Of a stretch of 64,000 nucleotides of DNA, positions 4,709 through 62,880 are shown one piece after another. Below the pieces are notes generated by a model that was not told where the DNA came from, did no database searches, and saw only the letters and a list, made by a program, of their open reading frames with translations. Source of the stretch: Motilibacter peucedani (GTDB taxonomy: Bacteria > Actinomycetota > Actinomycetes > Motilibacterales > Motilibacteraceae); NCBI RefSeq assembly GCF_003634695.1, contig NZ_RBWV01000010.1, positions 1-64,000 on the forward strand. Reading direction: 5' to 3'. A program made the translations under genes and the position numbers. How positions within the stretch are numbered: position 1 is the first letter of the stretch; each line of letters begins with the position of its first letter.

Positions 4709-4821
4709 GGTTCGTCACCGGATCGTGACCTGCCGTTGACTCCGCCGTGACGTGGTGCGACTCTGGACACCCGCCCAGAGCCGCGCCGGTGCGACGCAGC
4801 CTGGCTCCGGACACCCGCCCT

Positions 4822-4837: not shown

Positions 4838-4882
4838 GGGAGCACCCAACCGGACATCGTGCTTCGCGTGGAGGATCCCAGC

Positions 4883-5068: not shown

Positions 5069-5151
5069 GCCTGCCGCACCGGCCCGGCACCCGCGCCAGC
5101 GGGGGAGCCCCGGGCCGCGGGGAGCGCTCGTCGCTCCTGCGCCGCATCGGC

Positions 5152-5157
5152 TAGCGT
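5152..5157 (+). promoter_or_regulatory. candidate leaderless -10 element (TAGCGT) for smc
   Basis: TAGCGT ends 8 nt before the smc GTG start. Transcription would therefore begin at or next to the start codon, giving a leaderless mRNA, which is common in actinobacteria. No ribosome-binding site is present between the element and the GTG, consistent with this reading. Confidence 0.4.
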
Positions 5158-5165
5158 GCCTGCCC

Positions 5166-46765: not shown

Positions 46766-47396
46766 TGCGCACCGTCTCGATGTAGCGCTGCCCGATCTTC
46801 GAGCGCAGCCGGCGCACGCTGACGTCGACGACGTTGCTGCCGGGGTCGAACGTCAGCCCCCAGACGCTGAGCAGCAGCTCGGCGCGGCTGCAGACGGTGC
46901 CCGGACGGGTCATGAGGTGGTGCAGCAGCTCGTACTCCCGCTCCGAGAGGGCGACCAGCCTGCCGTCGACACGGATGCTGCGGCGCGCGTGGTCGAGCTG
47001 CAGCGCGGACGCGGACGGCTGGTCGGCCGTCTCGACAGGGGAGCGCAGGCGTACGCGCACCCGGGCCAGGAGCTCCTCGACCGCGAACGGCTTGGGCAGG
47101 AAGTCGGCGGCGCCCAGCTCGAGCGCGGCCACCCGCGGTGAGACCTCCGAGGTCGCCGAGAGCACGAGGACCCGCTGGTGGGGCAGCTGCTCGCGCAGCC
47201 GGCGCAGCACCTCCAGGCCGGGGATGCCCGGCAGCACGAGGTCGAGGATGAGCATGTCGTAGTGGGCGACGAGGGCCAGCTCGAGCGCGCGGGTGCCGGT
47301 GTAGGCGAGCTCGGCCTCGTGGTTGTCGCGGGCGAGTGCCCGCGCGACGAGGCTTGCCAGCCTCTCGTCGTCGTCGACGACCAGCAACCGAGCCAT
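46737..47396 (-). CDS. OmpR/PhoB-family response regulator
   Basis: The 219-residue regulator has a receiver domain with D8-D10 acidic cluster (VVDDDE) and the phospho-acceptor D52 in LILDLVLPG. The conserved lysine lies in LPKPFAVEEL. The C-terminal winged helix (about 125-217) has the family signature LSEREYELLHHL ... VVDVSVRRLRSKIG ... TVRNVGYAF. The ATG at 47396 follows agggggagac. CTGTCAT repeats in the divergent promoter region (47555-47584) are a plausible binding site. Copper sensing is inferred only from the neighbours. Confidence 0.92.
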   Translation of the reverse strand: MARLLVVDDDERLASLVARALARDNHEAELAYTGTRALELALVAHYDMLILDLVLPGIPGLEVLRRLREQLPHQRVLVLSATSEVSPRVAALELGAADFLPKPFAVEELLARVRVRLRSPVETADQPSASALQLDHARRSIRVDGRLVALSEREYELLHHLMTRPGTVCSRAELLLSVWGLTFDPGSNVVDVSVRRLRSKIGQRYIETVRNVGYAFLAG

Positions 47397-47554
47397 GTCT
47401 CCCCCTGGGGACGTCGGGCGCGTCGGCGCACCCGGCTCCGGGACAGAGGATGCACCAACGACCGGGCCGGCGGGACGGCTTTGCGGCGACGCGGGTGTCA
47501 GTAGCGGGCAGTCGTCGGCGATGAGTGACCGCTCGGACGCGAAGCGTCGATCTC

Positions 47555-47584
47555 CATGACAGGTCCATGACAGCGGCATGACAG
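47555..47584 (-). promoter_or_regulatory. three CTGTCATG direct repeats at 11-bp spacing (PhoB-box-like)
   Basis: On the minus strand CTGTCATG occurs three times (plus-strand CATGACAG at 47555-47562, 47566-47573, 47577-47584), each exactly 11 bp from the next. This is the layout of a PhoB/OmpR-type binding site and the half-site equals the enterobacterial PhoB half-site CTGTCAT. It lies about 100 bp before the beta-helix gene and about 160 bp before the regulator gene. Confidence 0.65.
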
Positions 47585-47681
47585 GGCCGTCATGTTCGGC
47601 GACGGCCGGCGCGACCCGGCACAGGGTGACGCCGAAACCCCGCGAGCTCCGCGGTGGAGCACGTCTATGGAGGGAGGGGCC

Positions 47682-50600
47682 GTGTTCGGACCACGAACGG
47701 CCTTGAGACGCTCGTTCCCAGCCCTTGTCGCCACAGGTCTCGTCACCGTGGCCATGCCGGCAGCGCAAGGGGGCCTCGCGACCCCGGCCGCTGCGGCGGC
47801 GGAGAGCCCGGGGAGCATCCACCTGCACGTGCAGAGCGCGCGCTCGGTCAACAACGGGCCGGGCTTCGTGCACGCGGGCGACGCCGTGACGGCGTACCAC
47901 TGGATCATCAACGAGGACGACACCGGCAACCCGCGCGACGCCCTGGCGAACTGCCTGCCCTCGAGCGCGAACGTGGCGAGCGCGCACGACTTCGCCGACC
48001 ACTGCCAGTGGCCGTCGACGCGGACGACCGCCGGCTGGGCACCGATCGTCGCGCAGGGCGACCAGACGACCCTGGACGACGACACGGCCCTCGACGGGCT
48101 GCCCCCGGGCAAGTACCTCATCTCGGTGACGGCCGACGGCTTCAAGATCGACGGCTCGCACTTCACCGTCGGCGCCGGCACGAGCCAGCAGGTCACCGTG
48201 GGCCTCCAGCCCTCGCCCCTGCCACTGCAGACCATCCGCCTGCAGGTCTTCAACGACAACGCCCCGGTGGACGGCACCTACGAGGTCGACGCCGAGCAGG
48301 GTCTGGCCGGCTTCACAGGGAACCTGACCGACGTCTTCGGCCCGGTGAGCGTCGACTACTACGGCAACGCGCTGTGCACCGTCTACAAGCACACGACCAC
48401 GTCGCCCACCTCGCCGATCGTCTTCGACGCGAACAACAAGCCCGTCGTCGACACCACGAGGTCGACGGGCAAGTGCACCAGCGACCGCACCGGCCTCATC
48501 ACCATCCCGAACCTCGGGCCGAACCGCTACGCGGCCACGGTCACCCCGCCGCTGGGCTCGACCTGGGTGCAGACCACCACGCTCGAGGGCGGCCACGACT
48601 ACGACATCTGGCAGCAGGAGGGCGAGACCGGCTTCGACACCGAGCAGACCAAGGGGGCCGAGCTCGTACCCTCCGTGCACTTCGGCTTCGCCCTGCAGAA
48701 GGCGGTGACGATCCCTCGGCGCAACGTCCCCACCGGTGAGATCAAGGGCGTGGCCGTCGCCGGTCTGCCCTACATCGGCGGGCAGAACGGCCAGGTGGTC
48801 CCGGAGACCGGATTCGCCGGCGCGAAGATCGGCGGCCCCATCCGGAACCCGTGGATCGCGCTGTCGGATCTCGACCAGGGCGACGCGGAGGTCTACCTCG
48901 GCCGCGGTGACGCCAACGGCGCCTTCGACATCAAGAACCTGCCGGACGGCACCTACTCGCTGACCGTGTGGGACGACGACCAGGACTACATCCTCTGGGC
49001 GTTCCAGGTGGAGGTCCACGACGGCGGCGTCACCGACGTCGGCAACAAGATGATCGTCGGCTGGTTCACCCACATCTACGGCAAGGTCTTCGTCGACACC
49101 AACGGCAACGGCAAGCTGGACGCCGGCGAGAAAAGCGTGCCGCAGTTCGGCCTGACCCTGCGCGAGCGGGACAACTCGCTGATGGACCAGTACACCAACA
49201 CGGTGACGACGGGCAGCGATGGCGTCTACGACATCCGCGAGGCCTACCCGATCGGCAAGTGGCTGGTGCTCGAGGCGTTCAACACGCGCTACCGCACGAC
49301 GGGCGTCACCTACAAGGCCGAGAACGAGACGAAGGCGACGACGCTGCTCGGCAGCGCCGTCGACATCGACGTGCTCGACATCATCGGGCTCGGTGGCGAG
49401 GTCGACTGGGGCGTCGAGCCCTACCCGGCGGGCGCGAACGGCGGCATCGTCGGCACCGTCTCCTACGACACCACCCGCAACGAGCTCGACCCCGCTGACG
49501 CGGCGAGCGAGAGCTACCAGCCGGGCATCCCGGACGTCCCCGTGCACGTGTACCTGCCGAAGGCGTGCGACGACCCGAGCACCGAGCTGTGCCGGCAGGG
49601 CTACCAGATCGAGCCGCCGCAGGTCCCCGACCCCGACGACAGCAGCAAGCTGGTCGACAACCCGCAGAACGGTGCCTTCGTCAAGGGGCCGGAGGTGCAG
49701 GACGCCTACACCTCCGAGACCTGGGCGCCACCCCGGGGGTGCACTGCACGCATGTTCAACGGCCAGCCGCTCACGGACCAGCAGGCGCTGCCCGCGTTCG
49801 GGGCCACGGCGAACGAGAAGTGCATCGAGGCGCCGATGATGGGCTTCCAGACCGGCGCCTCGGAGACCGGCCCCGACGGGTTCGCCCAGACGGTCAACGG
49901 CAACTACGGCTTCGCGACCTCGAAGATCAACCTGTACGCGCCGGGCGACAGCCGCAACCCGGCACCCGACCACGACCTGCCGCTCTACGCCGACCTCAAG
50001 GCCAACGGCTACGAGGAGCAGGACCTGCCGGCCAAGGACTACATCGTCTCGGTGGAGATCCCGCAGAACCCGGTCGGCGGCGGGGACATGTACAAGGTCA
50101 CCTCCGAGGAGGACGTCAACGTCTTCGACGGCGACGGCTACCTGCCGCAGGAGAACTTCCCGCCCACGCTCGCGCAGGCCAACGACATCCCCGGCCCGCC
50201 CGAGAGCGACCCGCTGCCGCCGACGCAGCCGCCCTCCCAGCAGGCCGGCATCATCTCGCCGTGCGTCGGGGTGCTGCACAAGGTGGACGTCACCGACCAG
50301 GCCTTCCTCGACGGAGGAGGCAGCCCGTTCCAGGGCCAGGAGCGCCCGTCGTGCTCCGACAAGCTGGTCACGGTCCGCGCCGGCCAGGCGACCGCGCCGA
50401 ACTTCAACCTGTTCACCACGGTCCCGGTCCCCACGCACTTCTGGGGCCTGACCATCAACGACCTGGGCCTCTCGCTCGACAAGCGGAGCATCAACTTCGG
50501 CGAGGCGCAGGGACTTCCCTACGTCCCCGTCGGGCTCTACGACTGGTCCGGCCGCCTGGTCGACACCACGCTCACGGACTTCAACGGCATGTACGAGGCC

Positions 50601-53063
50601 CTGGAGCCCTCCACCTCCACCTACAACTGCCCGGTGCCCGCAGGACCCTGTCCGAACATGTACCGCTTCGTGGGCAACGACCCGGGGCAGCCCGGGCACC
50701 TGAACCCCGACTACAACCCGCGGTTCCGCACCATCGCGACGAACTTCCAGGCGTGGCCGGGGCTCTACACCGTGACGGACACCGCCCCCACGCAGGTCGC
50801 GACGACGGCGCTGGCACCTGACACGACGACGGTCAACCCGACGATGTGCGACCTCGGCCCGACCATCCCGCAACCGCTGGCCGTGGACCGGCCCTACATC
50901 CGCAAGAACGACACCAACCGGACGCTCACCATCACCGGCACCGGCTTCGGTGCCGCGGGGACCGTGAAGCTCGGCGCCACCGCTCTCGCGGTGACCAGCT
51001 GGACCGACAAGCAGATCAAGGCGACGGTCCCGACGACGCTCGCCTCAGGCCCCACGGTGCTCTCGATCGTCACCGCCGCGGGCCAGAAGAACGTCAACGG
51101 CCTGACGGTGCAGCTGCTCGACGCCGCCAACGCTGCGACCGCCGGCACGACGGCGACCAACCCGCTCCTGGCGGAGGTCGGCCCCGGCAAGTCGTTCTCG
51201 ACCGTCCAGTCGGCGCTGGAGGCCGCCAAGCCCGCCGCAGCCGTACGCAACAGCCGGGGCCAGGTCGTCACGGCTGCCAAGCCGTACTGGCTCGTGGTGG
51301 TCTGGCCGAACGCCCAGACCAGCGCCAACCCGCACGGTGAGTACACCGAGAACGTGATCGTCCACCACCAGGTGCGCATCCAGGGCGTGGGACCGGGCGG
51401 CTTCGACTCGGCCGGCACCTTCGTCCCGGGTTCGATCCTCGACGGTGCCGGCTTCAACCCCGACAACCCCAGCGGCGCCAACTGGATCGCGCTGCTGAGC
51501 TCGCTGCGCTACGACGGCCCTGCGGCCGTGCCCGACGCAGCGGTGGTCACGGTGCTCGACGACCCGGCCCTCGCCGGTGTCGTGCCGAGCAGCTACTACC
51601 CGGCGATCGACGGGCTCCAGATCACCGGTGGCGCACAGTCGGACTTCGCGACCAACATCAACGAGGTCACGGGCGGCACCAAGACGCCGTACGGCGCCAC
51701 GGGTGCGCTCGTCACCCAGGGCGGCGGGGTCTTCGTCCACGCCGGCGTGCAGAACCTGCAGGTGACCGACGACGTCATCCGCGGCAACGGCGGGTCCTAC
51801 GGCGGGGGCGTGCGGGTCGGGACCCCGTACGCAGGGGACCTGAACAACCACAACCTCCTGCTGGCACGCAACCAGATCCGCGACAACGGCGGCACCAACC
51901 TCGCCGGCGGCATCGGCATCTTCAACGACAGCGACGGCTACACCGTCGACGGCAACGCCATCTGCGGCAACTTCTCCGCGGAGTACGGCGGCGCCATGAC
52001 GGCCTACGGCTACGACGGGACCGCCGGGGGCAAGGTGACCGGCAACCGCATCTGGTTCAACTCGTCCTACGACGAGGGCGGCGGCGTGATGATCGCCGGC
52101 GAGCTGCCGGCGGACCCGTCCCTGCTGTCGGAGGGCAGCGGACCGGTCACGATCGACAGCAACGTCATCCAGACCAACCTGGCGAGCGACGACGGTGGCG
52201 GCATCCGCCTGCTGCAGACCAGCGGCTCGCACATCAGCCGCTACAGCCCGGAGACGATCACCATCAGCAACAACACGGTGGCGAACAACGTCTCGGCCCA
52301 TGAGGGCGGTGGCATCTCGCTCGACGACGCGGCCTTCGTCAACGTGGTGGGCAACACGGTGGCCAAGAACCTCACCACGGCCACCGCGGTGACGAGCGAC
52401 GGGAACCCCGCCCCGGCGGGCCTCTCGACGGCGATGAACAGCGACCCGCTGCAGGCCCGGCTGCGGAACACCTCGCTGCTCGTCTTCCCCGCGTCGAGCA
52501 CCCTGGCCGCGACGACCTTCAGCAAGCCCACGCTGCTCGACAACGTCTTCTCGGACAACAGGGCGGGCACGTTCAGCGGTGGCTACGTCTACGGCATCGG
52601 CGGGAGCCTCCCGGACGGCACGGCCAACGACGTCAACGACTGGGACATGGGCGTCGCCGACGGCGACGGCAGCCAGCTGCTGGCACCGCTGAGCTCGGTG
52701 CTGCAGACCACCACGGGCACCGCGTCCTCGGCCACGAACACCGTGACGGACGACGCAGGGCTCCTGCAGCCCTGGGACGTGTCGGTGAACGTGCTGGCCT
52801 CACGGACCTACCCGGCCTTCCGGCAGTCCGTGATCGTGGCGGAGATCCTGCCGCCCAGCCTCATGGGCGACTACCACCTGGCGGCCACGTCGGTGGCGAA
52901 GGGCCGGGGAGCTGCCAGCACCAACGTCGTCTGGGGCACCGGAGCGCTGGGGTTCAGCTACACGGTCAGCGCTCCCAGCCGCGACATCGACGGCAACGCC
53001 CGGCCGAGCGGCACAGGCGCCGCGCGGCGCTGGGACGCCGGCTCCGACCAGCTTCAGCCGTAG
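47682..53063 (+). CDS. giant exported protein with SdrD-like, IPT/TIG and beta-helix domains
   Basis: The 1793-residue product has a signal peptide (about 1-42: basic RTALRRS, hydrophobic core, then a run of Ala). Carboxypeptidase-regulatory/SdrD-B-like beta-sandwich domains lie between about 60 and 900; one near residue 466 has the calcium-loop sequence DTNGNGKLDAGEK. An IPT/TIG domain runs about 1070-1150 (ITGTGFGAAGTVKLG). A right-handed parallel beta-helix runs about 1165-1680, rich in NN and GGG turn motifs (DGGGIRLLQ, NNTVANN). No LPXTG motif, membrane anchor or catalytic site is visible. GTG at 47682 is chosen for its ggagggagggg site; an earlier in-frame start gives a poor signal sequence. 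It is the first gene of the cupredoxin array and may be its extracellular scaffold. Confidence 0.85.
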   Translation: MFGPRTALRRSFPALVATGLVTVAMPAAQGGLATPAAAAAESPGSIHLHVQSARSVNNGPGFVHAGDAVTAYHWIINEDDTGNPRDALANCLPSSANVASAHDFADHCQWPSTRTTAGWAPIVAQGDQTTLDDDTALDGLPPGKYLISVTADGFKIDGSHFTVGAGTSQQVTVGLQPSPLPLQTIRLQVFNDNAPVDGTYEVDAEQGLAGFTGNLTDVFGPVSVDYYGNALCTVYKHTTTSPTSPIVFDANNKPVVDTTRSTGKCTSDRTGLITIPNLGPNRYAATVTPPLGSTWVQTTTLEGGHDYDIWQQEGETGFDTEQTKGAELVPSVHFGFALQKAVTIPRRNVPTGEIKGVAVAGLPYIGGQNGQVVPETGFAGAKIGGPIRNPWIALSDLDQGDAEVYLGRGDANGAFDIKNLPDGTYSLTVWDDDQDYILWAFQVEVHDGGVTDVGNKMIVGWFTHIYGKVFVDTNGNGKLDAGEKSVPQFGLTLRERDNSLMDQYTNTVTTGSDGVYDIREAYPIGKWLVLEAFNTRYRTTGVTYKAENETKATTLLGSAVDIDVLDIIGLGGEVDWGVEPYPAGANGGIVGTVSYDTTRNELDPADAASESYQPGIPDVPVHVYLPKACDDPSTELCRQGYQIEPPQVPDPDDSSKLVDNPQNGAFVKGPEVQDAYTSETWAPPRGCTARMFNGQPLTDQQALPAFGATANEKCIEAPMMGFQTGASETGPDGFAQTVNGNYGFATSKINLYAPGDSRNPAPDHDLPLYADLKANGYEEQDLPAKDYIVSVEIPQNPVGGGDMYKVTSEEDVNVFDGDGYLPQENFPPTLAQANDIPGPPESDPLPPTQPPSQQAGIISPCVGVLHKVDVTDQAFLDGGGSPFQGQERPSCSDKLVTVRAGQATAPNFNLFTTVPVPTHFWGLTINDLGLSLDKRSINFGEAQGLPYVPVGLYDWSGRLVDTTLTDFNGMYEALEPSTSTYNCPVPAGPCPNMYRFVGNDPGQPGHLNPDYNPRFRTIATNFQAWPGLYTVTDTAPTQVATTALAPDTTTVNPTMCDLGPTIPQPLAVDRPYIRKNDTNRTLTITGTGFGAAGTVKLGATALAVTSWTDKQIKATVPTTLASGPTVLSIVTAAGQKNVNGLTVQLLDAANAATAGTTATNPLLAEVGPGKSFSTVQSALEAAKPAAAVRNSRGQVVTAAKPYWLVVVWPNAQTSANPHGEYTENVIVHHQVRIQGVGPGGFDSAGTFVPGSILDGAGFNPDNPSGANWIALLSSLRYDGPAAVPDAAVVTVLDDPALAGVVPSSYYPAIDGLQITGGAQSDFATNINEVTGGTKTPYGATGALVTQGGGVFVHAGVQNLQVTDDVIRGNGGSYGGGVRVGTPYAGDLNNHNLLLARNQIRDNGGTNLAGGIGIFNDSDGYTVDGNAICGNFSAEYGGAMTAYGYDGTAGGKVTGNRIWFNSSYDEGGGVMIAGELPADPSLLSEGSGPVTIDSNVIQTNLASDDGGGIRLLQTSGSHISRYSPETITISNNTVANNVSAHEGGGISLDDAAFVNVVGNTVAKNLTTATAVTSDGNPAPAGLSTAMNSDPLQARLRNTSLLVFPASSTLAATTFSKPTLLDNVFSDNRAGTFSGGYVYGIGGSLPDGTANDVNDWDMGVADGDGSQLLAPLSSVLQTTTGTASSATNTVTDDAGLLQPWDVSVNVLASRTYPAFRQSVIVAEILPPSLMGDYHLAATSVAKGRGAASTNVVWGTGALGFSYTVSAPSRDIDGNARPSGTGAARRWDAGSDQLQP

Positions 53064-53068
53064 GCCCC

Positions 53069-53104
53069 GCCACCTGCCCCGCCCGCCCGGGCGGGGCGGG
53101 TGGC
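53069..53104 (+). terminator. strong hairpin after the beta-helix gene
   Basis: Sixteen-base arms (53069-53084 and 53089-53104) pair fully, with one G-T wobble, around GCCC. The hairpin begins 5 nt after the stop and ends 43 nt before the first cupredoxin gene. It may set the ratio of the large protein to the oxidase subunits rather than end transcription completely. Confidence 0.65.
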
Positions 53105-53147
53105 CTCCCACCCGACTCCGCACCCACGTACCCGCAGGAGTGCTCCC

Positions 53148-54410
53148 GTGACACACACCCGCTCGTCCTTCCCGATGTCGAGGCGGTCGTTCCTCGGCGC
53201 CACCGGGCTCGCTGCCGCCACCGCGGTGGGGGCCCGCCTCGTCGGCGGCGAGGTCGCCCAGGCGGCCACGTCGGCGGCCGCGGCCGTCACCCATCCCCGC
53301 AAGGAGCTCCACCTCGTCGGCACCGACGGCTGGGTGTCCATGCCGGCCGACGCGCCGGCCGACCCGCCGTTCTTCCCCGACGCGCTGGCCCCCTCGCCGT
53401 TCAACACCTACGTGTTCGGCTTCCGCGACGTCAGCGGGATGACCGCGAGCCAGGTCGCCGCGCAGCGCGGGCACGCGCAGATCAGCGCGCCCATGATGGC
53501 GTTCGACGAGGAGGACGACATCTACCTCACGCTGACCAACCTCGGGCTCTCGCAGCGGCCGGACCTCTTCGACGGCCACACGCTGCACTGGCACGGCTTC
53601 GTCAACGCGATCCCGCTCTTCGACGGCGTCCCCGAGCTCTCGCTGGCCGTGCCGGTCGGACGCGACCTCACCTACTTCTACCGCCCGCACGACGCCGGGA
53701 CCTACATGTACCACTGCCACTTCGAGGACGTGGAGCACGTGCAGATGGGGATGACGGGCATGGTCTTCGTGCGGCCCAAGCAGAACAAGCTCGCCGTTGC
53801 AGGGAACCCCGTCGGCACGAAGTACGCCTACAACGACGGCGACGGGTCCACGAGGTACGACCGCGAGTTCGCCTACATGATCACCGAGCTGTGGTCCGCC
53901 GCGCACTACCGCGACGCGCACATCCAGGTCAACGACTGGACCGACTACGACCCGAGCTTCTGGCTGCTGAACGGGCGGGCCTACCCGGACACCCTCGCGC
54001 CGACCGGGGACCCGAGGACGAGCACCGGACGCCTGCAGTACCAGCCGATCTCCTCGCTGGTGCAGTGCAACGAAGGCGAGCGGGTGCTGCTGCGCCTGTC
54101 CAGCCTGGGCTACCAGAACCACGCGATGACGGTCGACGAGATCGACCTGCAGATCGTGGCGAAGGACGCGAGCCTGCTGAAGGGCCGCGACGGCACGACG
54201 AACTACATCACCACGAACACCGTCGACGTGGGGCCGGGGGAGAGCCGCGACGTCATGTTCACCGCACCGGCGCCGGGCGAGTACCTGCTCTACGACCGCA
54301 AGTACTCCTACCTCGACAACGGAGGCGGCCCCGGCTACGGCGGCATGATGACGAAGATCGTCGTGCACCCGGCGGGGCAGCTGGCCAAGCAGACCAACCC
54401 CAACACCTGA
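53148..54410 (+). CDS. multicopper-oxidase paralogue A: type 1 copper site plus half of the trinuclear site
   Basis: This 420-residue protein has a Tat signal (SRRSFLGATGLAAATA near residue 9) and two cupredoxin domains. Domain 1 carries HTLHWHG (H144, H147, H149) and HCHFEDVEHVQMGM (H189, C190, H191, H197, M202). That is a complete type 1 copper set and four of the eight histidines of a trinuclear centre. Domain 2 has lost the matching motifs: NHAM replaces HxH, and YLLYDRKYSY replaces the final HxH motif. Alone it should not form a trinuclear site. The GTG at 53148 follows ggag. Gene B starts 23 nt downstream. The substrate is unknown; metal ions or phenolics are family possibilities. Confidence 0.88.
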   Translation: MTHTRSSFPMSRRSFLGATGLAAATAVGARLVGGEVAQAATSAAAAVTHPRKELHLVGTDGWVSMPADAPADPPFFPDALAPSPFNTYVFGFRDVSGMTASQVAAQRGHAQISAPMMAFDEEDDIYLTLTNLGLSQRPDLFDGHTLHWHGFVNAIPLFDGVPELSLAVPVGRDLTYFYRPHDAGTYMYHCHFEDVEHVQMGMTGMVFVRPKQNKLAVAGNPVGTKYAYNDGDGSTRYDREFAYMITELWSAAHYRDAHIQVNDWTDYDPSFWLLNGRAYPDTLAPTGDPRTSTGRLQYQPISSLVQCNEGERVLLRLSSLGYQNHAMTVDEIDLQIVAKDASLLKGRDGTTNYITTNTVDVGPGESRDVMFTAPAPGEYLLYDRKYSYLDNGGGPGYGGMMTKIVVHPAGQLAKQTNPNT

Positions 54411-54433
54411 TCCGCGGAACGGAGGAGACGACC

Positions 54434-55732
54434 ATGCACCCCGCACTACGCGCGCGAGCCCGCTCTCTGACCGCCGCCGGCGCCATCGGCGCCTTGGTGT
54501 CAGGAGTCCTGCTCACCACGCCGCACGCCGCCAGCGCGGCGATGTCCGAAGGGCTGGCCTGCGACACCAGCTCCAGCGGCACGTTCTCCCTCACGGCGTC
54601 CGACGGCTACGTCTCGACGCCCGACGGGAACTCCATCTACATGTGGAGCTACGGAGCCAGCAGCCGCGGCTTCCAGCTCCCGGGCCCGACGCTGTGCGTC
54701 GAGTCGGGCAGGACGGTCACGGTCGTGCTGCACAACAGCCTGCCGGAGAGCACGTCGATCGTCTTCCCCGGTCAGCGGGGCGTACGCGCCAACGGTGCCC
54801 CTGCCCAGCCGCAGTTCGACGACGGCGGGTCGCTGACCTCGCTCGTGCAGGCGGCGGCGCCGGGCGACGGGTCGGTGACCTACACCTTCACCGCCGGCAG
54901 CCCCGGGACCTACCTCTACGAGAGCGGCACCGACGTCAGCAAGCAGGTGCAGATGGGGATGTACGGCGCCCTCGTCGTCCGCCCGGCCGGGCACCCGGAC
55001 CAGGTGAACGACCGCGCCGACTCGAGGTTCACCGCCGACAAGGACTACGTGTTCCTGCTCTCCGAGGTCGACCCCGACGTGCACCTGGCCGTCGAGCGCA
55101 ACCAGCCGATCGACGACTCGGCCTACACGGCGCGCTACTTCATGATCAACGGACGGAGCATGCCCGACACGCTCGCGCCGAACGGCGCGTCGTGGCTGCC
55201 GAACCAGCCCTACGGCGCCGTCGTCCACATCAAGCCCTACGACGCGGCAACGAACCCCTACCCCGCGGCGATCCGCTACCTCAACGCCGGCACGGTCAAC
55301 TACCCGTTCCACCCGCACGGCAGTGACGAGCGGGTCGTCGACCGCGACGGGCACGCCCTCGAGGGACCGAACCACGAAGACCTCTCCTTCCAGAAGTACG
55401 ACCTCGACGTCGGTCCCGGGCAGACGCTGGACGTGCTCATGGACTGGCGCGACGTCGAGCACTGGAACGCCCTGACGAACCCCGTGCCCACGAAGCTGCC
55501 CGCCATCACGGACCAGGACCTCGTCGGCACCGACACGTGGTTCTCCGAGAGCCCCTACCTCGGCACCAAGAACGCGCTGCCCACGAGCATCACGTCCAAC
55601 AACCAGTGCGGCGAGTACTACCACATAGCCCACAGCCACGCGCTCGAGCAGGCGACCAACTACGGCGCAACCTTCGGCGGCATGATGACGGTCTTCCGCA
55701 TCGACCCGCCCAACGGCTGCCAGGCACAGTGA
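54434..55732 (+). CDS. multicopper-oxidase paralogue B: other half of the trinuclear site
   Basis: This 432-residue protein has a Sec signal (about 1-36, ending ASA) and two cupredoxin domains. Domain 2 carries HPH (H293, H295, in YPFHPHG) and HIAHSH (H397, H400, H402), supplying the HxH pairs that paralogue A lacks. There is no cysteine in the last motif, so it has no type 1 site. Domain 1 aligns residue for residue with A but has E163-S164-G165 where A has His-Cys-His, while the following VQMGM is kept. It is a partner subunit by inference. The ATG follows ggaggag. Gene C starts 11 nt after its stop. Confidence 0.86.
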   Translation: MHPALRARARSLTAAGAIGALVSGVLLTTPHAASAAMSEGLACDTSSSGTFSLTASDGYVSTPDGNSIYMWSYGASSRGFQLPGPTLCVESGRTVTVVLHNSLPESTSIVFPGQRGVRANGAPAQPQFDDGGSLTSLVQAAAPGDGSVTYTFTAGSPGTYLYESGTDVSKQVQMGMYGALVVRPAGHPDQVNDRADSRFTADKDYVFLLSEVDPDVHLAVERNQPIDDSAYTARYFMINGRSMPDTLAPNGASWLPNQPYGAVVHIKPYDAATNPYPAAIRYLNAGTVNYPFHPHGSDERVVDRDGHALEGPNHEDLSFQKYDLDVGPGQTLDVLMDWRDVEHWNALTNPVPTKLPAITDQDLVGTDTWFSESPYLGTKNALPTSITSNNQCGEYYHIAHSHALEQATNYGATFGGMMTVFRIDPPNGCQAQ

Positions 55733-55743
55733 GGACGGCAGCG

Positions 55744-58700
55744 ATGAGCATCTACGACACTCCACGGCGCTCGGCCCCGAGGGCCGGCCGCAGAGTACGC
55801 ACGGCGGCCCTCAGCTCCGCCGCGGCCGCGAGCCTGCTCGCCGCACAGACGCACGCGGGCGTCGCGAGCGCCGAGACGCCGGCCGCCCCGGTCGTCACGG
55901 CACCGGCCGCCACGGCGGTGCACGCCGCGGCGGTGGGACAGCTGGCCGCGAGCGGCTGCACCGAGACGGCAGGTGCTGCCACGTGCGACCTCTACGCCAT
56001 GACAGGCAGCCTCTCGCTCCTCGGCAGGACGATCCCGATCTGGGGGTTCTCGACGACCGGCGCGGCCGGCTCGGCGACCGCCCCTGGCCCGGTCCTGGTC
56101 GTGAACGCGGGCGACGCGGTCACGCTCACCCTGCACAACGCCATCGACGGCGAGACGATGTCGCTCGCGCTGCCCGGCCAGCAGGCCGTCAGCTCCTCCG
56201 GAGCGATCGGCGACGACGTGACGGGGGTGGGCTCAGGAGGCACCAGGACCTACACCTTCACTGCCGGGCGTCCCGGCACGTTCGTCTACGAAGCGGGCCA
56301 CACGGCCAACGGCACGCGGCAGGTCGCCATGGGTCTCGCGGGGGCGCTCGTCGTGCTCCCCGGCGACCACACGGCCTACGGAGCCGGCTCGACCGGCCCC
56401 AGCACCGCGTACGACGACGACGCACCGCTGGTGCTCAGCGAGATCGACCCCAGGCTCAACGCGGACCCCGCGCACTTCGACATGCGCAGCTTCCGCCCGG
56501 TCTACCGGCTGGTGAACGGCGAGGTCTTCCCCGAGACGAACTCCGTGAGCACCGACCAGGGACACACGGTCCTGCTGCGCTACGTGAACGTGGGCTCCGA
56601 GACGCACTCGATGAGCCTGCTCGGCGCTGACCAGCTCGAGGTCGCCCAGGACGGGCACCCGATGAGGTTCGGTACGCGGCTGGCCGCCGAGAGCATCGAG
56701 CCCGGGCAGACGGTCGACACCCTCGTGACGATGCCCACCGGGCCCGAGGCCAAGGTCGCGGTCTACGAGGCCGCCCTGCACCTCGACAACGGCCAGCACA
56801 CCGCCGACCCGCGGCAGTTCGCCTTCGGCGGCATGCTCACCTTCCTCGACACCAACGCACCAGCGCCCTCGACCGACGTCGTCGGACCGACGGCGACGCA
56901 CATCGCCCTCACGCCGAACCCGTCGAACGGGCTGGCCGACGTGACCGTGACCGCGGACCTCAGCGACGCCAACGGCGGCAGCGCCGTCACCCAGGCAGAG
57001 CTGGTCGTCGACGACCCGACGGCGACCGGCCCCGGCTTCGGCACCCCGATGACGGGCGCCTTCGGCACGGTCGACGTGTCCCACGCGACCGGCACCATCC
57101 CCACCGCGGTCCTCGACACCCTCGACGCCGGCAAGCACACCGTCTACGTGCGGGCGATGGACTCGGCCGGCAACTGGGGGGTCGTCGGATCGGCCGTCCT
57201 GAGCCTGCCGAAGACCGGCCCGCAGACCGTCGCCGGCTCCGTGGTGGACGTGCCGGCGAACGGCACCGCCGACCTCGAGATCAGCGCCACGGGCGACGAC
57301 AGCGCGGCCGGCGGGACGATCACCGCGGCTGAGTACTTCATCGACACCGCAGGACCGGACGGGACGGGGACCCCCCTCACGCCGAACCGCACGGCCACCG
57401 TCGTGGCCGAGTCGGCGACCGTGCCGGCCGCCCAGGTGGCCGCGCTCGGAGAGGGCCGGCACCACCTGCTCATCCACAGCAAGGACAGCCTCGGCCTCTG
57501 GGGCCCGACCCTCGACGTCGCGCTGCCGGTGGACCTCACCGGTCCGCAGGTGGACGCCGCCGCGATCGGCCCCAACCCCAGCAACGGCCTGCTCAGCGAC
57601 AAGAGCAACCCCGGCTACCTGCTGATCTCGGCCCAGGTCACCGACAAGGACGCAGGCGGCGCGGTGCAGAGCACGCTGACCGACGCCGAGGCGTTCCTCG
57701 ACCCCAAGGCGGCCAACCCCGCCGGCGGCGCCGGCATCCAGCTGATCGCCGTCGACGGGAGGATGGACAGCCCGACGGAGTCGGTCTACGGGCTGCTGCC
57801 CATCGGCCAGGTCAAGGCCCTGGCTGACGGGGACCACACCGTCTCGGTGCGCGGGCAGGACGCCGCCGGCAACTGGGGGCCGCTGTTCGCCTTCAAGCTG
57901 ACGGTCGACAAGACGGCCCCTGTCCTCAGCGCCTTCGCCGCGTCGCCCAGCCCCACCGGTGGCGCAGCCTCGCTCACCCTCACCGCGAAGGTCGCTGACG
58001 CGTCGCTGATCTCCAACGCGGAGTACTGGACCGGCACCACCGACCCCGGCGTCGGGAAGGCCTCGCCGCTCGCGGTCAACTTCGCCAACGGCACGGTGAC
58101 CGAGGTGGTCGACCTCACCGGTGTGCCGGCCGGCGTGACGCAGTTCAACCTGCGCGTCAAGGACCTCGCGGGCAACTGGAGCAAGGCCGTCTCCACCTCG
58201 GTCACGGTCCAGCCGCCGAACGCGATCTTCTCCGACACGTTCGACTCCGGCACCCTGGCGGCGTGGAGCGCGTCCACCGGCGGCGTCTCGGTCACGGCAG
58301 CGGCGGGCATCGTCGGCGGCAAGGGCCTGGCTGTGAACCTGCCGGGTGGCCGGAACAACCGCGCGGCGTACGTGACGGACACTCGGCCGGCAGCTGAGCC
58401 GAGCTACCACGCGAGGTTCGCCTTCAACCGCAGCACGTTGACCTCGGGATCGAACGCGGCAACCGCGCTCACGCTGTTCGAGGCGCGGAACGCGGCCAAC
58501 GCGCAGGTGTTCGCGCTGCAGTACCGCCTGAGCGGCAGCCAGGCACAGCTGCGCACGGTGCTGTCACGCACCGGCGCGACGGCCATGACGGGTGCGTGGG
58601 TCAACCTCGCGGCCGGGACCTCGACCCTGCAGCTGGACTGGCAGTCCGGCGGCGCGACCGGCACTCCTCAGGGCAAGCTGGTCCTGTCGGTGGACGGCGC

Positions 58701-58854
58701 GGCAGTGCAGAGCGCCACCGGCAACACCAGTGGGCTGAAGGTGGACACCGTCCTGCTCGGAGTGACGGCAGGGGTGACCACGACCACGACCGGCAGCACC
58801 GCCGGCACGGCGTACGTCGACTCCTTCGTCTCGACCCGCTCCACGATGCCCTAG
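55744..58854 (+). CDS. multicopper-oxidase paralogue C: ligand-free cupredoxins, Ig-like repeats, LamG-like end
   Basis: The 1036-residue product has a signal peptide (about 1-43) and two cupredoxin-like domains (about 65-375) related to A and B. All copper ligands are missing: E183-A184-G185 stands in place of His-Cys-His, and HSM in place of HPH. Four Ig-like repeats follow (about 378-820), several opening with a NPSNG or SPTGG turn and closing with DxAGNW. A C-terminal jelly-roll of laminin-G/concanavalin type begins near 828 (FSDTFDSGTLAAWSAS). It looks like a structural third subunit and a link to the cell surface or a glycan. The ATG follows gagga. Confidence 0.83.
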   Translation: MSIYDTPRRSAPRAGRRVRTAALSSAAAASLLAAQTHAGVASAETPAAPVVTAPAATAVHAAAVGQLAASGCTETAGAATCDLYAMTGSLSLLGRTIPIWGFSTTGAAGSATAPGPVLVVNAGDAVTLTLHNAIDGETMSLALPGQQAVSSSGAIGDDVTGVGSGGTRTYTFTAGRPGTFVYEAGHTANGTRQVAMGLAGALVVLPGDHTAYGAGSTGPSTAYDDDAPLVLSEIDPRLNADPAHFDMRSFRPVYRLVNGEVFPETNSVSTDQGHTVLLRYVNVGSETHSMSLLGADQLEVAQDGHPMRFGTRLAAESIEPGQTVDTLVTMPTGPEAKVAVYEAALHLDNGQHTADPRQFAFGGMLTFLDTNAPAPSTDVVGPTATHIALTPNPSNGLADVTVTADLSDANGGSAVTQAELVVDDPTATGPGFGTPMTGAFGTVDVSHATGTIPTAVLDTLDAGKHTVYVRAMDSAGNWGVVGSAVLSLPKTGPQTVAGSVVDVPANGTADLEISATGDDSAAGGTITAAEYFIDTAGPDGTGTPLTPNRTATVVAESATVPAAQVAALGEGRHHLLIHSKDSLGLWGPTLDVALPVDLTGPQVDAAAIGPNPSNGLLSDKSNPGYLLISAQVTDKDAGGAVQSTLTDAEAFLDPKAANPAGGAGIQLIAVDGRMDSPTESVYGLLPIGQVKALADGDHTVSVRGQDAAGNWGPLFAFKLTVDKTAPVLSAFAASPSPTGGAASLTLTAKVADASLISNAEYWTGTTDPGVGKASPLAVNFANGTVTEVVDLTGVPAGVTQFNLRVKDLAGNWSKAVSTSVTVQPPNAIFSDTFDSGTLAAWSASTGGVSVTAAAGIVGGKGLAVNLPGGRNNRAAYVTDTRPAAEPSYHARFAFNRSTLTSGSNAATALTLFEARNAANAQVFALQYRLSGSQAQLRTVLSRTGATAMTGAWVNLAAGTSTLQLDWQSGGATGTPQGKLVLSVDGAAVQSATGNTSGLKVDTVLLGVTAGVTTTTTGSTAGTAYVDSFVSTRSTMP

Positions 58855-58874
58855 CCCTGGCACCACCGGGCACC

Positions 58875-58907
58875 TCCCGGGGCCGCGCGCACTGCGCGGC
58901 CCCGGGA
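58875..58907 (+). terminator. hairpin after paralogue C
   Basis: Fourteen-base perfect arms TCCCGGGGCCGCGC (58875-58888) and its complement (58894-58907) surround GCACT, 20 nt after the stop of paralogue C and 23 nt before the next ATG. It is a likely partial or full terminator. Confidence 0.7.
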
Positions 58908-58930
58908 CCTCCGCTCCGAAAGGAACTCCC

Positions 58931-59404
58931 ATGGTCCTCAGCCTGCGCGTACTGCGTCCCTCGGTCCCGACGGCCCTGCGCGCCGTCGCCGTCCTCGTCG
59001 TCGCGCTCCTGGTGTGCCTCCTGGCGCGCAACCTGCTGCTCACGCCGGCGGACGCGACGACCGCCTCAGTGCCGCAGAACGCGACGATGGAGGCCCAGCT
59101 CGGCATCCGCTTCTCGCGGGTCGCCGTGGTGGGCGACGGTGGTCTGGTCACCGTCACCTACGTCGTGCTCGATGCCGAGAAGGCCCAGCAGTTGCAGGCC
59201 TCCCAGGCCCACCCGCCCGTGCTCAGCAGCGAGTCCCGCAAGGGCAGCACCTCACGGGTGTCGCTGATGAAGCAGGGGCACTCGCTGCGCGCGGGGCAGA
59301 CCTACTACCTCGTCTACGAGAACACGCGCGGCGCGCTGCGGCACGGCGAGCGCGTCACCATCACCGACGGCGCCCTGCGCCTGGCGCACGTCCCGGTGCT
59401 GTGA
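58931..59404 (+). CDS. small membrane-anchored exported protein, function unknown
   Basis: The 157-residue protein has one N-terminal hydrophobic helix (about 15-37, LRAVAVLVVALLVCLLARNLL) that serves as an anchor or signal. The exported domain of about 115 residues is predicted beta-rich (for example VVGDGGLVTVTYVVLD, YYLVYENTRGAL). A few histidines and methionines are present but no recognisable copper motif. The ATG has a gaaaggaac site. Its stop overlaps the copCD start (TGATG), so it is coupled to copper-import functions. I do not recognise the family. Confidence 0.75.
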   Translation: MVLSLRVLRPSVPTALRAVAVLVVALLVCLLARNLLLTPADATTASVPQNATMEAQLGIRFSRVAVVGDGGLVTVTYVVLDAEKAQQLQASQAHPPVLSSESRKGSTSRVSLMKQGHSLRAGQTYYLVYENTRGALRHGERVTITDGALRLAHVPVL

Positions 59405-61254
59405 TGGCGCGGCTGGCCGGCCGGCTCGCCGCGGTCGTGGTGGTCGCCGCGGCGGCGCTGGTCGGGCCGGTGTCGTCCGCCTCGGCGCACGCCTTCCTCG
59501 TCGAGAGCGGGCCGTCGGACGGGCAGGTCGTCCCCACCGCTCCGGCGACGCTGCGGATGCAGTTCAGCGAGTCGGTGGCACTGCCGGCGACCTCCATCGA
59601 CATCGTCGACGGGGACGGCCGCCACTACGCGCCGACGCACCTCGAGCTGGTGCGCAGCAGCGAGGACGACGAGGATCCCGTGCAGGTCGTGGCGACCCTG
59701 CCGGCGCTCCCGCACAACACCTTCCGCGTGTCGTGGGAGACGCTGTCCAGCGACGACCTGCACCGCACCAGCGGTGTCCTCGTCTTCGGCGTCGACGTCC
59801 CGGTGCGCTCGAGCGGCCTGCACGAGACCAACCCCTCGCCCGAGGAGTCGGCGCTGCGCTGGGCGCTGTTCACCTCCGTCGCGCTCGCCCTCGGCGGGCT
59901 GCTGCTCCGCCGCCTCTGCGTGCCAGCCGGACTCGTCGCGCAGGGGCGGCGCGCCGCCGGGCTTGCCTGCCTCGGAGGGGTCGGCGCGCTCGCCGCGTCG
60001 GTCGCGCTGCTCCTCGACCAGCTGGGCGGCGCCGGCTGGCGGTTCCAAGCCGTGCTGGTCGGCGCCTACGGCGTCCGGTGGCTGGTGCGCGAGGCCGGCC
60101 TGCTCCTCGTGCTCACCGCCGCGTTGACCGCCTGGCGGGCGCGCCGTCCCGTGGCGGGCGTCGGCCTCCTGGCGGCCGCCGGGACCGTCGCCGCGATGGT
60201 CGGCTCGGCCCTGCTCGGGCACGCGGGAGCCGCCCGCGGCCCGGCCCTCACCCGGGTTGCTGCCGAGGCCGCCCACTTCGGCGCCGCTGCGCTCTGGTCG
60301 GGCTTCCTGCTCGCCGCGGTGCCGCTGCTGCTCCCGCTCCTGCGCCCGGGAGGCGACGCCGGGGCCGCCCGCCGCGTCCTGCGCGGGTTCGGCGTCCCGG
60401 CCGCTGCGTGCGTCAGCACCGTGGTGGTGACCGGTGTCTACCTCGCCAGCGGGGTCGTCGGCTCGGTCGACGCCGCGCTGTTCACGACCTACGGGCGCGT
60501 GCTGCTGCTGAAGGTCGTGGTCGCGGCGGTCGCCGGAGCGCTGGGGCTCCAGCACGTACGCCGCCTGCACGCCGCCGTCCCGCGGCCGGTGCGCGCGTGG
60601 ACCCTGCGCGCTGAGGCGGGGGCCGCACTGCTGGTGCTCGGGCTGGCGGGGGTGCTCACGAGCGGGCAGCCCGCCCAGGAGCCGCAGCTGGTGCGCGCAC
60701 CGCACGCTGCGACCGTCCCGGTGGTGGACGGGGCGATCGCCGACCTGCAGTCGGCGGTCAGCGTGCAGCCGAACCGGCCGGGGCGCAACGTGGTCCTCGT
60801 CGACACCTTCGACACCCGCCGGCCCTCGCCGGGAGCGGTCCGCCGCGTCACGCTCACGGTGGTGGGCCTCGACGGCCGCTCCTCCCCGCCGGTGGCAGCC
60901 GAGCGGATCGCCGAGGGCCGCTGGTCGGCAGCGACCACGCTGAGCTCGCCGGGGCGTACGCAGCTGCTCGTCAGCGTCACGCGCACCGGCCTGCCCGAGG
61001 TGCACCGCACCTTCTCGTGGACGGTCGCCGGGGCACCGTCGCCCACCCGCGCGGCCCGGGTGTCGACCGCGCCGGTCGACGGCCTGCTGCGCGCGGCGGC
61101 CGCGGGGCTCGCGCTGGCGGTGCTGGCCGGGTGGCTGGGGTTCGCGGTGCTGCGCCGGCGCGGCCGGCGGCTCCTGCCCGACGCGGTCCCGCCGGCTCGC
61201 CGAGCCGACGAGGACCTGGCGGAGGAGGCCGAGCTGGTGCGCTCCTCGTCGTAG
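59404..61254 (+). CDS. CopC-CopD fusion, copper-binding and import protein
   Basis: The 616-residue protein begins with a signal peptide ending SASA, followed by a CopC domain (about 28-125). Its mature N-terminus is His-Ala, the usual copper ligand, and the later DDLHRTSG holds the Asp-x-His-type ligand pair. A CopD domain with about eight membrane spans (about 145-430) follows, then an exported YtkA/FixH-like beta domain (about 440-560) and a final span (about 565-585). CopC-CopD proteins deliver copper across or to the membrane. Next to copper oxidase genes, a role in metallation is the likely reading. The ATG overlaps the preceding stop. Confidence 0.9.
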   Translation: MARLAGRLAAVVVVAAAALVGPVSSASAHAFLVESGPSDGQVVPTAPATLRMQFSESVALPATSIDIVDGDGRHYAPTHLELVRSSEDDEDPVQVVATLPALPHNTFRVSWETLSSDDLHRTSGVLVFGVDVPVRSSGLHETNPSPEESALRWALFTSVALALGGLLLRRLCVPAGLVAQGRRAAGLACLGGVGALAASVALLLDQLGGAGWRFQAVLVGAYGVRWLVREAGLLLVLTAALTAWRARRPVAGVGLLAAAGTVAAMVGSALLGHAGAARGPALTRVAAEAAHFGAAALWSGFLLAAVPLLLPLLRPGGDAGAARRVLRGFGVPAAACVSTVVVTGVYLASGVVGSVDAALFTTYGRVLLLKVVVAAVAGALGLQHVRRLHAAVPRPVRAWTLRAEAGAALLVLGLAGVLTSGQPAQEPQLVRAPHAATVPVVDGAIADLQSAVSVQPNRPGRNVVLVDTFDTRRPSPGAVRRVTLTVVGLDGRSSPPVAAERIAEGRWSAATTLSSPGRTQLLVSVTRTGLPEVHRTFSWTVAGAPSPTRAARVSTAPVDGLLRAAAAGLALAVLAGWLGFAVLRRRGRRLLPDAVPPARRADEDLAEEAELVRSSS

Positions 61255-61303
61255 CGCACCCGTGGACCGGGTGCCCAGGCACGCCCCCTGGGCCTGGCAC
61301 CCT

Positions 61304-61357
61304 GCGGTCGGACCCCTCCTCGCTGGCGCCCCCCTCCTCGAGGAGAGGTCCGACCGC
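61304..61357. terminator. bidirectional terminator between copCD and the arabinofuranosidase gene
   Basis: Nineteen-base arms (61304-61322 and 61339-61357) pair with a single mismatch around a 16-nt loop, midway between two convergent genes. A smaller imperfect hairpin (about 61269-61302) precedes it. The symmetry would stop transcription from both sides. Confidence 0.75.
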
Positions 61358-61377
61358 CTCGTGCGTGTGCCTGGTGC

Positions 61378-62880
61378 CTACGCCTCCAGCCGCAGCATGT
61401 TCCACGACAGCGGGGGCAGCACGACCTGCGCGCGGCCGCCGTCGAGCGAGATGCTCCCGGCGTCGCGCGGCACCACGCGGTCAGGCTGCTCGGCGCTGTT
61501 GACGGCCTCCGGGTCGTCGTCGGAGAGGCACGTGTGCGAGCCGCGCGCCAGACCGGTCATGCCCCGCAGGTCGAGGTCGAGGGTGACCGGCGTGGTCTGG
61601 TCGCGGTTGACGGCGAAGACCGTGACCGCGCCGCTCTCCTCGTCGAGCACCGCGACCGAGTCGAGCACGGGCACCTCGCCCTGCCAGGCGGTGTCGTGGA
61701 CAGGGGAGGTCGGCTCCACCCGCAGCACGGTGCCCCGGCCGTACTTCGAGGTCAGCGCGAACGGGTGGTAGATGCTCTGCCGCCAGGCCGGTCCGCCGGG
61801 CTCGCTGCGGATGGGCGCGATGACGTTGACCAGCTGGGCGAGGCAGGCGATGCTCACCCGGTCGGCGTGGCGGAGCAGGCTGTTGAGCAGCGTGCCGACC
61901 ACGACCGCGTCGGTCACCGAGTAGACGTCCTCGATCAGGCGCGGCTTGTCGGCCCACTCGAGGTTCTTCTCGCCGACGAACTTGCCGATGTACCACACGT
62001 TCCACTCGTCGAAGCTGATGTTGATGCGCTTCTTGTGGCGCCCGACGGCGCGCACGTGGTCTGCAGTGGCGACCACCGAGTCGATGAAGTTGTCCATGTC
62101 GACGGCACAGGCGAGGAAGCTGTCGCGGTCGCCGCCGCGCTCCTCGTAGTAGGTGTGCGCCGAGATGTAGTCGACGTCCTCGTAGCACTCGGCGAGCACC
62201 GTCGCCTCCCACGAGCCGAACGTGGGCATCCGGCTGTTGCTGCTGCCGCAGGCGACCAGCTCGATCGTCGGGTCGACCAGCTTCATGGCCTTCGCCGTCT
62301 CGTGCGCCAGCCGGGCGTACTCCTCGGCCGTCTTGTGCCCGATCTGCCAGGGGCCGTCCATCTCGTTGCCGAGGCACCACAGCTTGATGCCGTAGGGGTC
62401 GGCCGACCCGTTGGAGCGGCGGAGGTCGGACCACTGCGTGCCTGAGGAGTGGTTGCAGTACTCGACGAGGCGGCGTGCCGCGTCAACCCCGCGGGTGCCC
62501 AGGTTGACGGCCATCATCGTCTCGGTGCCGATGCCGCGCGCCCACTCCTGGAAGTCGTCGACACCCACCTGGTTGGACTCGATGGAGCGCCAGGCGAGGT
62601 CGAGGCGGGCGGGCCGCTGGTCGCGCGGCCCGATCCCGTCCTCCCAGTTGTAGCCGGAGACGAAGTTGCCTCCCGGGTAGCGGACGATCGGCACGCCCAG
62701 GTCGCGCACCAGGTCCGCGACATCGGTGCGGAAGCCGTGGGCGTCGGCCGACGGGTGCTCCGGCTCGTAGATGCCGGTGTAGACGCAGCGGCCCATGTGC
62801 TCGACGAACGAGCCGAAGAGCCGGGGGTCGACCTCGGCGACGCGGAAGGCCGGGTCGAGGGTGAGTGACGCGGAGTGCAA
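61378..62880 (-). CDS. alpha-L-arabinofuranosidase (GH51)
   Basis: GH51 enzymes release terminal arabinofuranose from arabinan or arabinoxylan oligosaccharides; the lack of a signal peptide indicates a cytosolic role on imported substrates. The acid/base glutamate lies in CLGNEMDGPWQ and the nucleophile glutamate in SFDEWNVWY. Family blocks FGSFVEHMGRCVYTGIYEP and RYPGGNFVSGYNWEDGIG are intact. Length 500 is normal. The TTG at 62880 is preferred because ggagaa sits 5 nt upstream. A TTG at 62892 would add four residues. It is downstream of two sugar ABC permease genes. Confidence 0.92.
   Translation of the reverse strand: MHSASLTLDPAFRVAEVDPRLFGSFVEHMGRCVYTGIYEPEHPSADAHGFRTDVADLVRDLGVPIVRYPGGNFVSGYNWEDGIGPRDQRPARLDLAWRSIESNQVGVDDFQEWARGIGTETMMAVNLGTRGVDAARRLVEYCNHSSGTQWSDLRRSNGSADPYGIKLWCLGNEMDGPWQIGHKTAEEYARLAHETAKAMKLVDPTIELVACGSSNSRMPTFGSWEATVLAECYEDVDYISAHTYYEERGGDRDSFLACAVDMDNFIDSVVATADHVRAVGRHKKRINISFDEWNVWYIGKFVGEKNLEWADKPRLIEDVYSVTDAVVVGTLLNSLLRHADRVSIACLAQLVNVIAPIRSEPGGPAWRQSIYHPFALTSKYGRGTVLRVEPTSPVHDTAWQGEVPVLDSVAVLDEESGAVTVFAVNRDQTTPVTLDLDLRGMTGLARGSHTCLSDDDPEAVNSAEQPDRVVPRDAGSISLDGGRAQVVLPPLSWNMLRLEA

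Follow-up and report, generated by a model that had tools for sequence, protein, structure and literature searches.

A multicopper oxidase active site apparently divided between two of three adjacent, paralogous two-domain subunits in Motilibacter peucedani and other bacteria

Introduction

Two-domain multicopper oxidases (2dMCOs) are trimers in which neighboring protomers build each trinuclear copper center (TNC) jointly, one with its domain 1 and the other with its domain 2 (PMC13151041, PMC3192119). The known type C 2dMCOs are homotrimers of a single gene product with three TNCs, and have an HxH and an HCH motif in domain 1 and two HxH motifs in domain 2. Here, we analyze a locus of Motilibacter peucedani in which these same motifs are spread over the first two of three consecutive genes, which we term A, B, and C. 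The locus lies within positions 1 to 64,000 of contig NZ_RBWV01000010.1, and we refer to this whole stretch of 64,000 nucleotides (nt) as the window. We propose, at a probability of roughly 0.8, that A, B, and C form, together with a giant upstream protein, D, a surface multicopper oxidase whose catalytic unit would be obligately heteromeric, each of these three paralogs contributing one two-domain subunit. A search of the full-text literature, covering no preprints and few subscription papers, found no description of a heteromeric two-domain oxidase or of this three-gene arrangement, in keeping with the original prediction made from the window alone, whose author knew of no such description.

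Other systems share parts of this layout. Copper nitrite reductases (NirK) have the same two-domain fold and are the closest relatives of C by sequence among solved structures in the Protein Data Bank; they carry a type 2 site in place of the TNC. The spore-coat laccase CotA is an oxidase of spore formers that lacks a signal peptide and consists of a single three-domain chain with all ligands. Ceruloplasmin, hephaestin, and other six-domain oxidases, including MnxG, combine six cupredoxin domains with a single TNC, and one published scheme (PMC3600357) derives ceruloplasmin-type oxidases from a triplicated two-domain ancestor that lost its extra copper sites. The same paper places the type 1 sites of ceruloplasmin in domains 2, 4, and 6 and the known six-domain TNCs at 1-6 or 2-3. 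Finally, the Mnx complex (MnxG + MnxE3F3) is a heteromeric bacterial multicopper oxidase encoded by adjacent genes and active on spores, in which mnxG alone encodes a multicopper oxidase, MnxE and MnxF being proteins of ~12 kDa (PMC5622069).

Results

The copper ligands are divided between A and B

Three open reading frames (ORFs) share the + strand: A at 53148-54410 (420 aa), B at 54434-55732 (432 aa), and C at 55744-58854 (1036 aa), with gaps of 23 nt between A and B and 11 nt between B and C; an in-frame GTG lies upstream of A at 53100. In Pfam, A matches Cu-oxidase_2, Cu-oxidase_3, and Cu-oxidase, while B and C each match Cu-oxidase_3, and in the M. peucedani genome the Cu-oxidase_3 and Cu-oxidase_2 profiles match solely this locus. 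C is further distinguished by a long C-terminal extension and a Big_13 match just below the cut-off. The closest solved structure by sequence is 3g5w for both A (E 1e-18, with both domains aligned) and B (E 1e-6); we call this structure and 2zwn type C from the HCH in their domain 1.

In domain 1 of A, HTLHWHG (53577-53597, +; starting at residue 144) provides H144 as a type 1 ligand and H147 and H149 as TNC ligands, while HCHFEDVEHVQMGM (53712-53753, +), in which HCHFEDVEH starts at residue 189, provides H189 and H191 to the TNC and C190, H197, and a methionine to the type 1 site. The type 1, 2, and 3 roles of single histidines are assigned from laccase chemistry. A type 1 site in domain 1, as in type C enzymes, is found by sequence in A only. 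Domain 2 of A is ligand-free: in the alignment with 3g5w, HAMTVD replaces HAIHTH and YDRKYSY replaces HDHVDTH. In B, it is domain 1 that is ligand-free, with ESG (residues 163-165; 54920-54928, +) at the position of HCH in A, and domain 2 that holds the other four TNC histidines, in HPH (H293 and H295; 55310-55318, +) and HSH (H400 and H402; 55631-55639, +), with serine at the position of the type 1 cysteine. C has no copper ligands at the sites matching those of A and B. The original prediction had assigned A domain 1 a full type 1 site together with half of the eight TNC histidines, B domain 2 the other half, and C none, and we confirm this to the residue; its gene coordinates, motif positions, and the ESG in B domain 1 are likewise correct. 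Of the four copper motifs that a 2dMCO carries in one polypeptide, A has the domain-1 pair, B the domain-2 pair, and C none. Judged from these sequences, no domain of A, B, or C besides A domain 1 and B domain 2 is able to complete a type 1 site or TNC.

Gene order and ligand partition recur in three phyla

Relatives were sampled by scanning one genome per species with A, and the best 80 of 99 relatives gave 79 loci (labeled L; genomes are labeled G). These comprise 11 loci from Bacillota, 13 from Chloroflexota, and, bar one record, Actinomycetota for the remainder; near-copies are counted, 62 of the 71 triplets (the window's included) being left at an A identity of <93%. B lies directly downstream of A in 76/79 loci, and in the three without B (L038, L053, L082) the contig stops <=302 nt past the stop codon of A. 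C is the next gene after B in 74/76 loci, the two without C (L025, L040) ending <=337 nt past the stop of B, and in L024 it is present only as a fragment. The C ORF ranges from 251 to 439 aa in the Bacillota loci and from 148 to 1384 aa in the others, with some clipped by contig ends.

A column tally finds H144, H147, H149, C190, H191, H197, M200, and M202 of A kept in 79/79 loci and H189 in 78/79, while an HxH string is absent from domain 2 of A in all 80 sequences (79 loci and the window). In B, H293, H295, H400, and H402 are kept in 76/76 loci, the residue between the last two, at the former type 1 cysteine, being S (58), N (16), or A (2); in domain 1, residue 164 is S or T and residue 165 is G in 76/76. 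HxH strings occur somewhere in the scanned B domain 1 in 5/77 rows and in the scanned stretch of C in 4/75 rows, none of them at the tabulated ligand sites. By this 79-locus tally, the ligand partition is far beyond chance. The alignments labeled A2, A3, and A4 consist of 40, 34, and 32 chosen rows, respectively. Adjacent triplets with complementary, co-inherited ligand loss, which the original prediction had suggested seeking in other genomes, are found in three phyla.

The same pairing is seen in whole genomes. Among Actinomycetota, A is present at E<=1e-30 in 3/396 sampled genomes, that of M. peucedani among them, and five more A genes in G063, G185, and G290 each have B next to them (the B of L124 is frameshifted). 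Among Bacillota, A is present at E<=1e-110 in 18/398 genomes and B at E<=1e-150 in 17/398, and the genomes with a strong A are those with a strong B, except G530. Among Chloroflexota, which include Candidatus Aquidulcis, A is present at E<=1e-150 in 8/400 genomes with B adjoining in all eight. One of these, G485, is also locus L046, an Oscillochloris locus with two A-B copies ~10 kb apart. Regions were read for 20 of the 29 Bacillota genomes matched and later for eight more (G476 is Moorella L074). Among the loci added later, eight duplicate ones already counted (L153, L155, L160, L162, L168, L174, L175, L182). D, A, B, and C occur together in 13/20 of the Bacillota regions, counting L161, where D is two ORFs, and L152, where the start of A is frameshifted. 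Among the ORFs of 113 loci, there is no fused A-B or A-B-C protein; two generic ORFs, in L087 and L110, show a weak C-like and a weak A-like stretch (52-62 bits).

Loss of B and relatives encoded by single genes

In the exceptional genome G530, A (locus L150) has HTIYWEG and HCYFETVEH in place of the usual motifs, such that H147, H149, and H191, three of the four TNC histidines, are lost while the type 1 site is kept; B and D are absent from the 12 kb fetched, and C is retained. Because A and C of this locus are sisters of Tepidibacillus genes (100/97 and 100/100), we read the loss as secondary, and G530 would represent a natural co-loss of B and the TNC histidines of A. A and C persist at 4617-6692 of L150, and this A, with its type 1 site kept, may now be an electron carrier. 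G655 holds a decayed copy with a frameshifted A and no B, and the Moorella-like G838 (L165, 7316-10201) has an intact-looking C and a shortened D, with A and B gone.

Weaker matches to the A profile are single genes whose one product carries the complete set of eight TNC histidines as well as the HCH...EH type 1 motif. They comprise the Bacillota S family, which are two-domain type C-like oxidases (510-553 aa, with long insertions; L146, L147, L148, L157, L177-L181), and two Chloroflexota relatives (L166, L167). Neither B nor C is found near these genes in the DNA fetched, where flanks are short at L147 and L166. L149 is a degenerate member of the S family.

Trees were inferred from 47 chosen sequences (earlier) and 48 chosen rows (later). 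In the 48-row tree, A, B, and C form one clade each (100/99, 81/77, and 94/87, respectively), B and C group as sisters (100/100), and the split between Bacillota and Chloroflexota/Actinomycetota recurs in all three clades. The single-gene rows fall outside A+B+C, the deepest fork that separates them being weak (63/47). Orthologs of A that keep all eight histidines without B would contradict a divided site; the single-gene relatives were considered as such a refutation and rejected, because they do not group within the clade of A (100/99). The three Thermincola paralogs still share 40-45% identity with one another. The simplest reading of these sequences would be two duplications before the phylum split, with the ligand partition retained since.

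Predicted structures of natural A-B and A-B-C runs

Two chains were modeled with AlphaFold2 (AF2): an A-B-C chain, which is the natural in-frame run of L080 read through its stops, and an A-B chain from the run of Kribbella L008, whose A and B are 78% and 80% identical to those of the window. For the A-B chain, the predicted local distance difference test (pLDDT) score is 82 and the predicted template modeling (pTM) score is 0.75, which we infer to be above the expectation for independently placed halves. The C part of the A-B-C chain and the B part of the A-B chain match 3g5w/2zwn with Z ~29 and a root-mean-square deviation (rmsd) of 2-3, the C part of the L080 model matching 2zwn at Z 29.6. 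Two cupredoxin domains per subunit are found in B and C by model fold and in A by sequence, the VIA tables being without A rows; most of the VIA rows shown fall in the C part (A-B-C chain) or the B part (A-B chain). Ceruloplasmin is absent from the 50 VIA rows shown for either chain, and the factor V chain 4bxs_V aligns with 517 residues of the A-B chain at an rmsd of 14.8.

Export signals and neighboring genes

Signal peptides were judged by hydropathy and the RRxF motif rather than by a dedicated predictor. On both counts, the start of A in the window suggests export and resembles a substrate of twin-arginine translocation (Tat), with a sub-threshold match to Pfam TAT_signal (E 0.01). An RRxF motif precedes A in 35/68 of the non-Bacillota A genes. 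In most Actinomycetota and Chloroflexota loci, A, B, and C all begin with a hydrophobic start, whereas in the 11 Bacillota loci the starts of all three are without a hydrophobic stretch.

Directly upstream of A lies the gene for D (47592-53063, +; 1823 aa), a giant protein with SdrD_B, CarboxypepD_reg, and TIG matches and a sub-threshold beta-helix match. The original prediction did not mention this fourth gene. A D homolog of >900 aa is found upstream of A in 71/79 loci; in seven of the eight loci without a long D, A sits close to where the contig begins, and in the eighth, L024, this stretch falls into two ORFs. The 68 long D rows (1494-2726 aa) have four near-invariant cysteines in common. 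D also has a conserved tryptophan, is the usual fourth gene in three phyla, and has no existing name that we could find.

Downstream of C lies the gene for a small protein, E (58931-59404, +; 157 aa), with an N-terminal hydrophobic stretch, the motif VAVVGDGGLV, and no Pfam family above cut-off; its cluster occurs in 49/79 loci. It is followed by a CopC-CopD fusion (59404-61254, +), identified by Pfam, whose cluster occurs in 35/79 loci (members from L006 and L008 were scanned). On the opposite strand, on the far side of D, are a histidine kinase (45659-46765, -; HisKA, HATPase_c) and an OmpR-type response regulator (46737-47396, -; Response_reg, Trans_reg_C), with clusters in the fetched flanks of 30/79 loci (L008 and L074 scanned) and 36/79 loci (L006 and L074 scanned), respectively. 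A promoter and terminator scan of positions 47000-61600 returned no promoter-like elements and three terminator-like elements against 2.6 expected, and a tRNA search of the window found none.

The D-A-B-C set of Moorella L074 has two notable neighbors: next to D is a gene for a CotJC-like manganese catalase (4443-5195), and ~4 kb past C is one for a Coat_F protein (17448-18014); Moorella and Tepidibacillus are spore formers. By a home-made score, 5/19 Bacillota regions upstream of D have sigma-E/K-like sites with scores reached by <=7% of 60 shuffles; 12 regions in this count used a stop-to-stop start, and the rows upstream of the manganese catalase gene and of the L083 A are uncounted. Together, the L074 neighbors and the sigma-K-like sites suggest a spore-coat role in Moorella.

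Discussion

Strong support for the claim that one TNC is shared by A domain 1 and B domain 2, already made in the original prediction, comes from the invariance of the ligands across three phyla, adjacency, the single-gene outgroups, and one co-loss. Following the known trimer architecture, the TNC, with one type 2 and two type 3 coppers, would form at the A-domain-1:B-domain-2 interface, whose geometry we draw by analogy. We further infer a 1:1:1 A:B:C heterotrimer from the presence of C wherever the contig continues, its two-domain fold, and its sisterhood to B. C would occupy the third place in the ring, such that each trimer would have one working center, and the interfaces of B domain 1 with C domain 2 and of C domain 1 with A domain 2 would carry no ligands. 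A substrate, with a metal ion or a phenol as candidates, would be oxidized at the type 1 copper of A, electrons would reach the shared TNC through the HCH bridge, and O2 would probably be reduced to water there. The gene neighborhood points to CopC-CopD as the probable copper supplier, regulated by the two-component pair, and to D as the probable anchor or scaffold of the oxidase; the Bacillota version is possibly a spore-coat oxidase. The set probably arose from a single-gene type C-like oxidase through two duplications, after which complementary loss would have locked the subunits together. A fuller version, toward which we lean with less assurance, would be an ancient obligate heterotrimer with an irreversibly partitioned TNC, assembled extracellularly (A via Tat, B and C via the Sec pathway) on the scaffold D, redeployed to the spore coat in Bacillota, and evolved independently as an unfused counterpart of ceruloplasmin.

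Several observations limit or weigh against the proposed heterotrimer. The A-B-C chain of L080 has a pLDDT of 76 and a pTM of 0.60, the latter counting against it, and pLDDT blocks at the HTxHWHG loop of A are 51 in the A-B chain and 56-60 in the A-B-C chain. Superposition on bacterial three-domain laccases gives a TMt of 0.67-0.76 for A-B-C and 0.46-0.50 for A-B, and comparison of the A-B-C chain with ceruloplasmin gives a TM score of 0.21-0.23 at an rmsd of ~30, with Foldseek reporting E 1e-47 for 4enz, yet a TM score of 0.22 and an rmsd of 30. Correlations between domain distances, from an analysis that left out L021, L024, L073, and L078, lean weakly toward the predicted order of domains (0.39 for A1-B2, 0.30 for B1-C2, and 0.02 for C1-A2, each numeral denoting the domain) over the opposite order (-0.23, 0.02, and 0.13), and non-partner pairs such as A2-B2 also reach 0.39. 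Leucine replaces H189 in the A of L022 and the first methionine in the A of L121. The co-loss of B and the TNC histidines of A is a single case, and in the earlier tree, with two outgroup rows only, C is not one clade. Lastly, the place of C in the trimer is argued from its presence and fold, and its persistence in G838 means that C can outlive the enzyme.

Alternatively, A and B might share the active site outside a 1:1:1 ring, either as an A:B heterodimer or with two copies of one subunit, leaving C as an accessory or surface protein. The long branches and widely varying length of C, its survival beside a shortened D without A or B in G838, and the pTM of 0.75 for the A-B chain by itself would fit this arrangement. 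We nonetheless consider it unlikely, as C is found in 74/76 loci with B, both exceptions being cut off by the end of the contig, and has kept its two-domain fold (Z 29.6). Moreover, because two-domain oxidases are trimers (PMC13151041, PMC3192119), an A:B pair would leave one place in the ring open.

We assign a still smaller chance to ordinary paralogy, in which A would form a homotrimer with a type 1 or partial site, acting as an electron carrier or a nitrite reductase-like protein, and the histidines of B would serve another metal. The copper nitrite reductase model TIGR02376 does match all three subunits, though far under its cut-off of 296.3 bits (A 44.5, B 27.4, C 35.4), and the A of L150 keeps its type 1 site without B. 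Against this, 78/79 loci retain the full quartet of TNC histidines in A domain 1, where a type 1-only carrier would need none, A domain 2 offers no HxH, and in L150, where B is lost, the TNC histidines of A are lost too. The idea that a frameshift or misassembly has split one normal gene set, for which the frameshifts in some draft loci (L124, L152, L158) might be cited, has a negligible probability in our view: it is refuted by the recurrence of the same layout and ligand split in 79 loci plus 20 further A loci, some on contigs of >1 Mb.

When compared to described systems, the proposed heteromer most resembles the type C 2dMCOs (3g5w, 2zwn) in its two cupredoxin domains per subunit, its type 1 site in domain 1, and a TNC that would lie between neighboring protomers. 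The difference is that three genes are involved in place of one, with at most one TNC per A:B:C by ligand distribution. The ceruloplasmin-like character claimed in the original prediction holds as an analogy, in that six domains would share one TNC after the proposed triplication and loss. It does not hold as an unfused form with the same domain order: ceruloplasmin is one fused chain of six domains, whereas each of the three subunits has its own ORF in the loci examined, the type 1 site is in the first domain, and an A-domain-1:B-domain-2 center would be '1-4', which is not collinear. The likeness to ceruloplasmin looks like separate evolution. In place of the one oxidase and ~12 kDa E/F subunits of Mnx, this locus encodes three oxidase-like subunits of 420, 432, and 1036 aa. 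The Bacillota A, B, and C, being without a signal-type start, are also reminiscent of the spore-coat laccase CotA.

The A-B-C locus would follow a triplication-and-loss logic similar to that of the ceruloplasmin scheme, without gene fusion and kept in three phyla. Searches for four motifs in one protein would miss split enzymes of this kind, and therefore oxidase inventories may undercount. A giant partner protein not described before and a possible new spore-coat oxidase also emerge from the locus. The origin of obligate hetero-oligomers through complementary degeneration that locks paralogs together becomes directly testable by reconstitution, and, if true, the system would be a textbook example of how subunits evolve mutual dependence, with a co-loss still visible.

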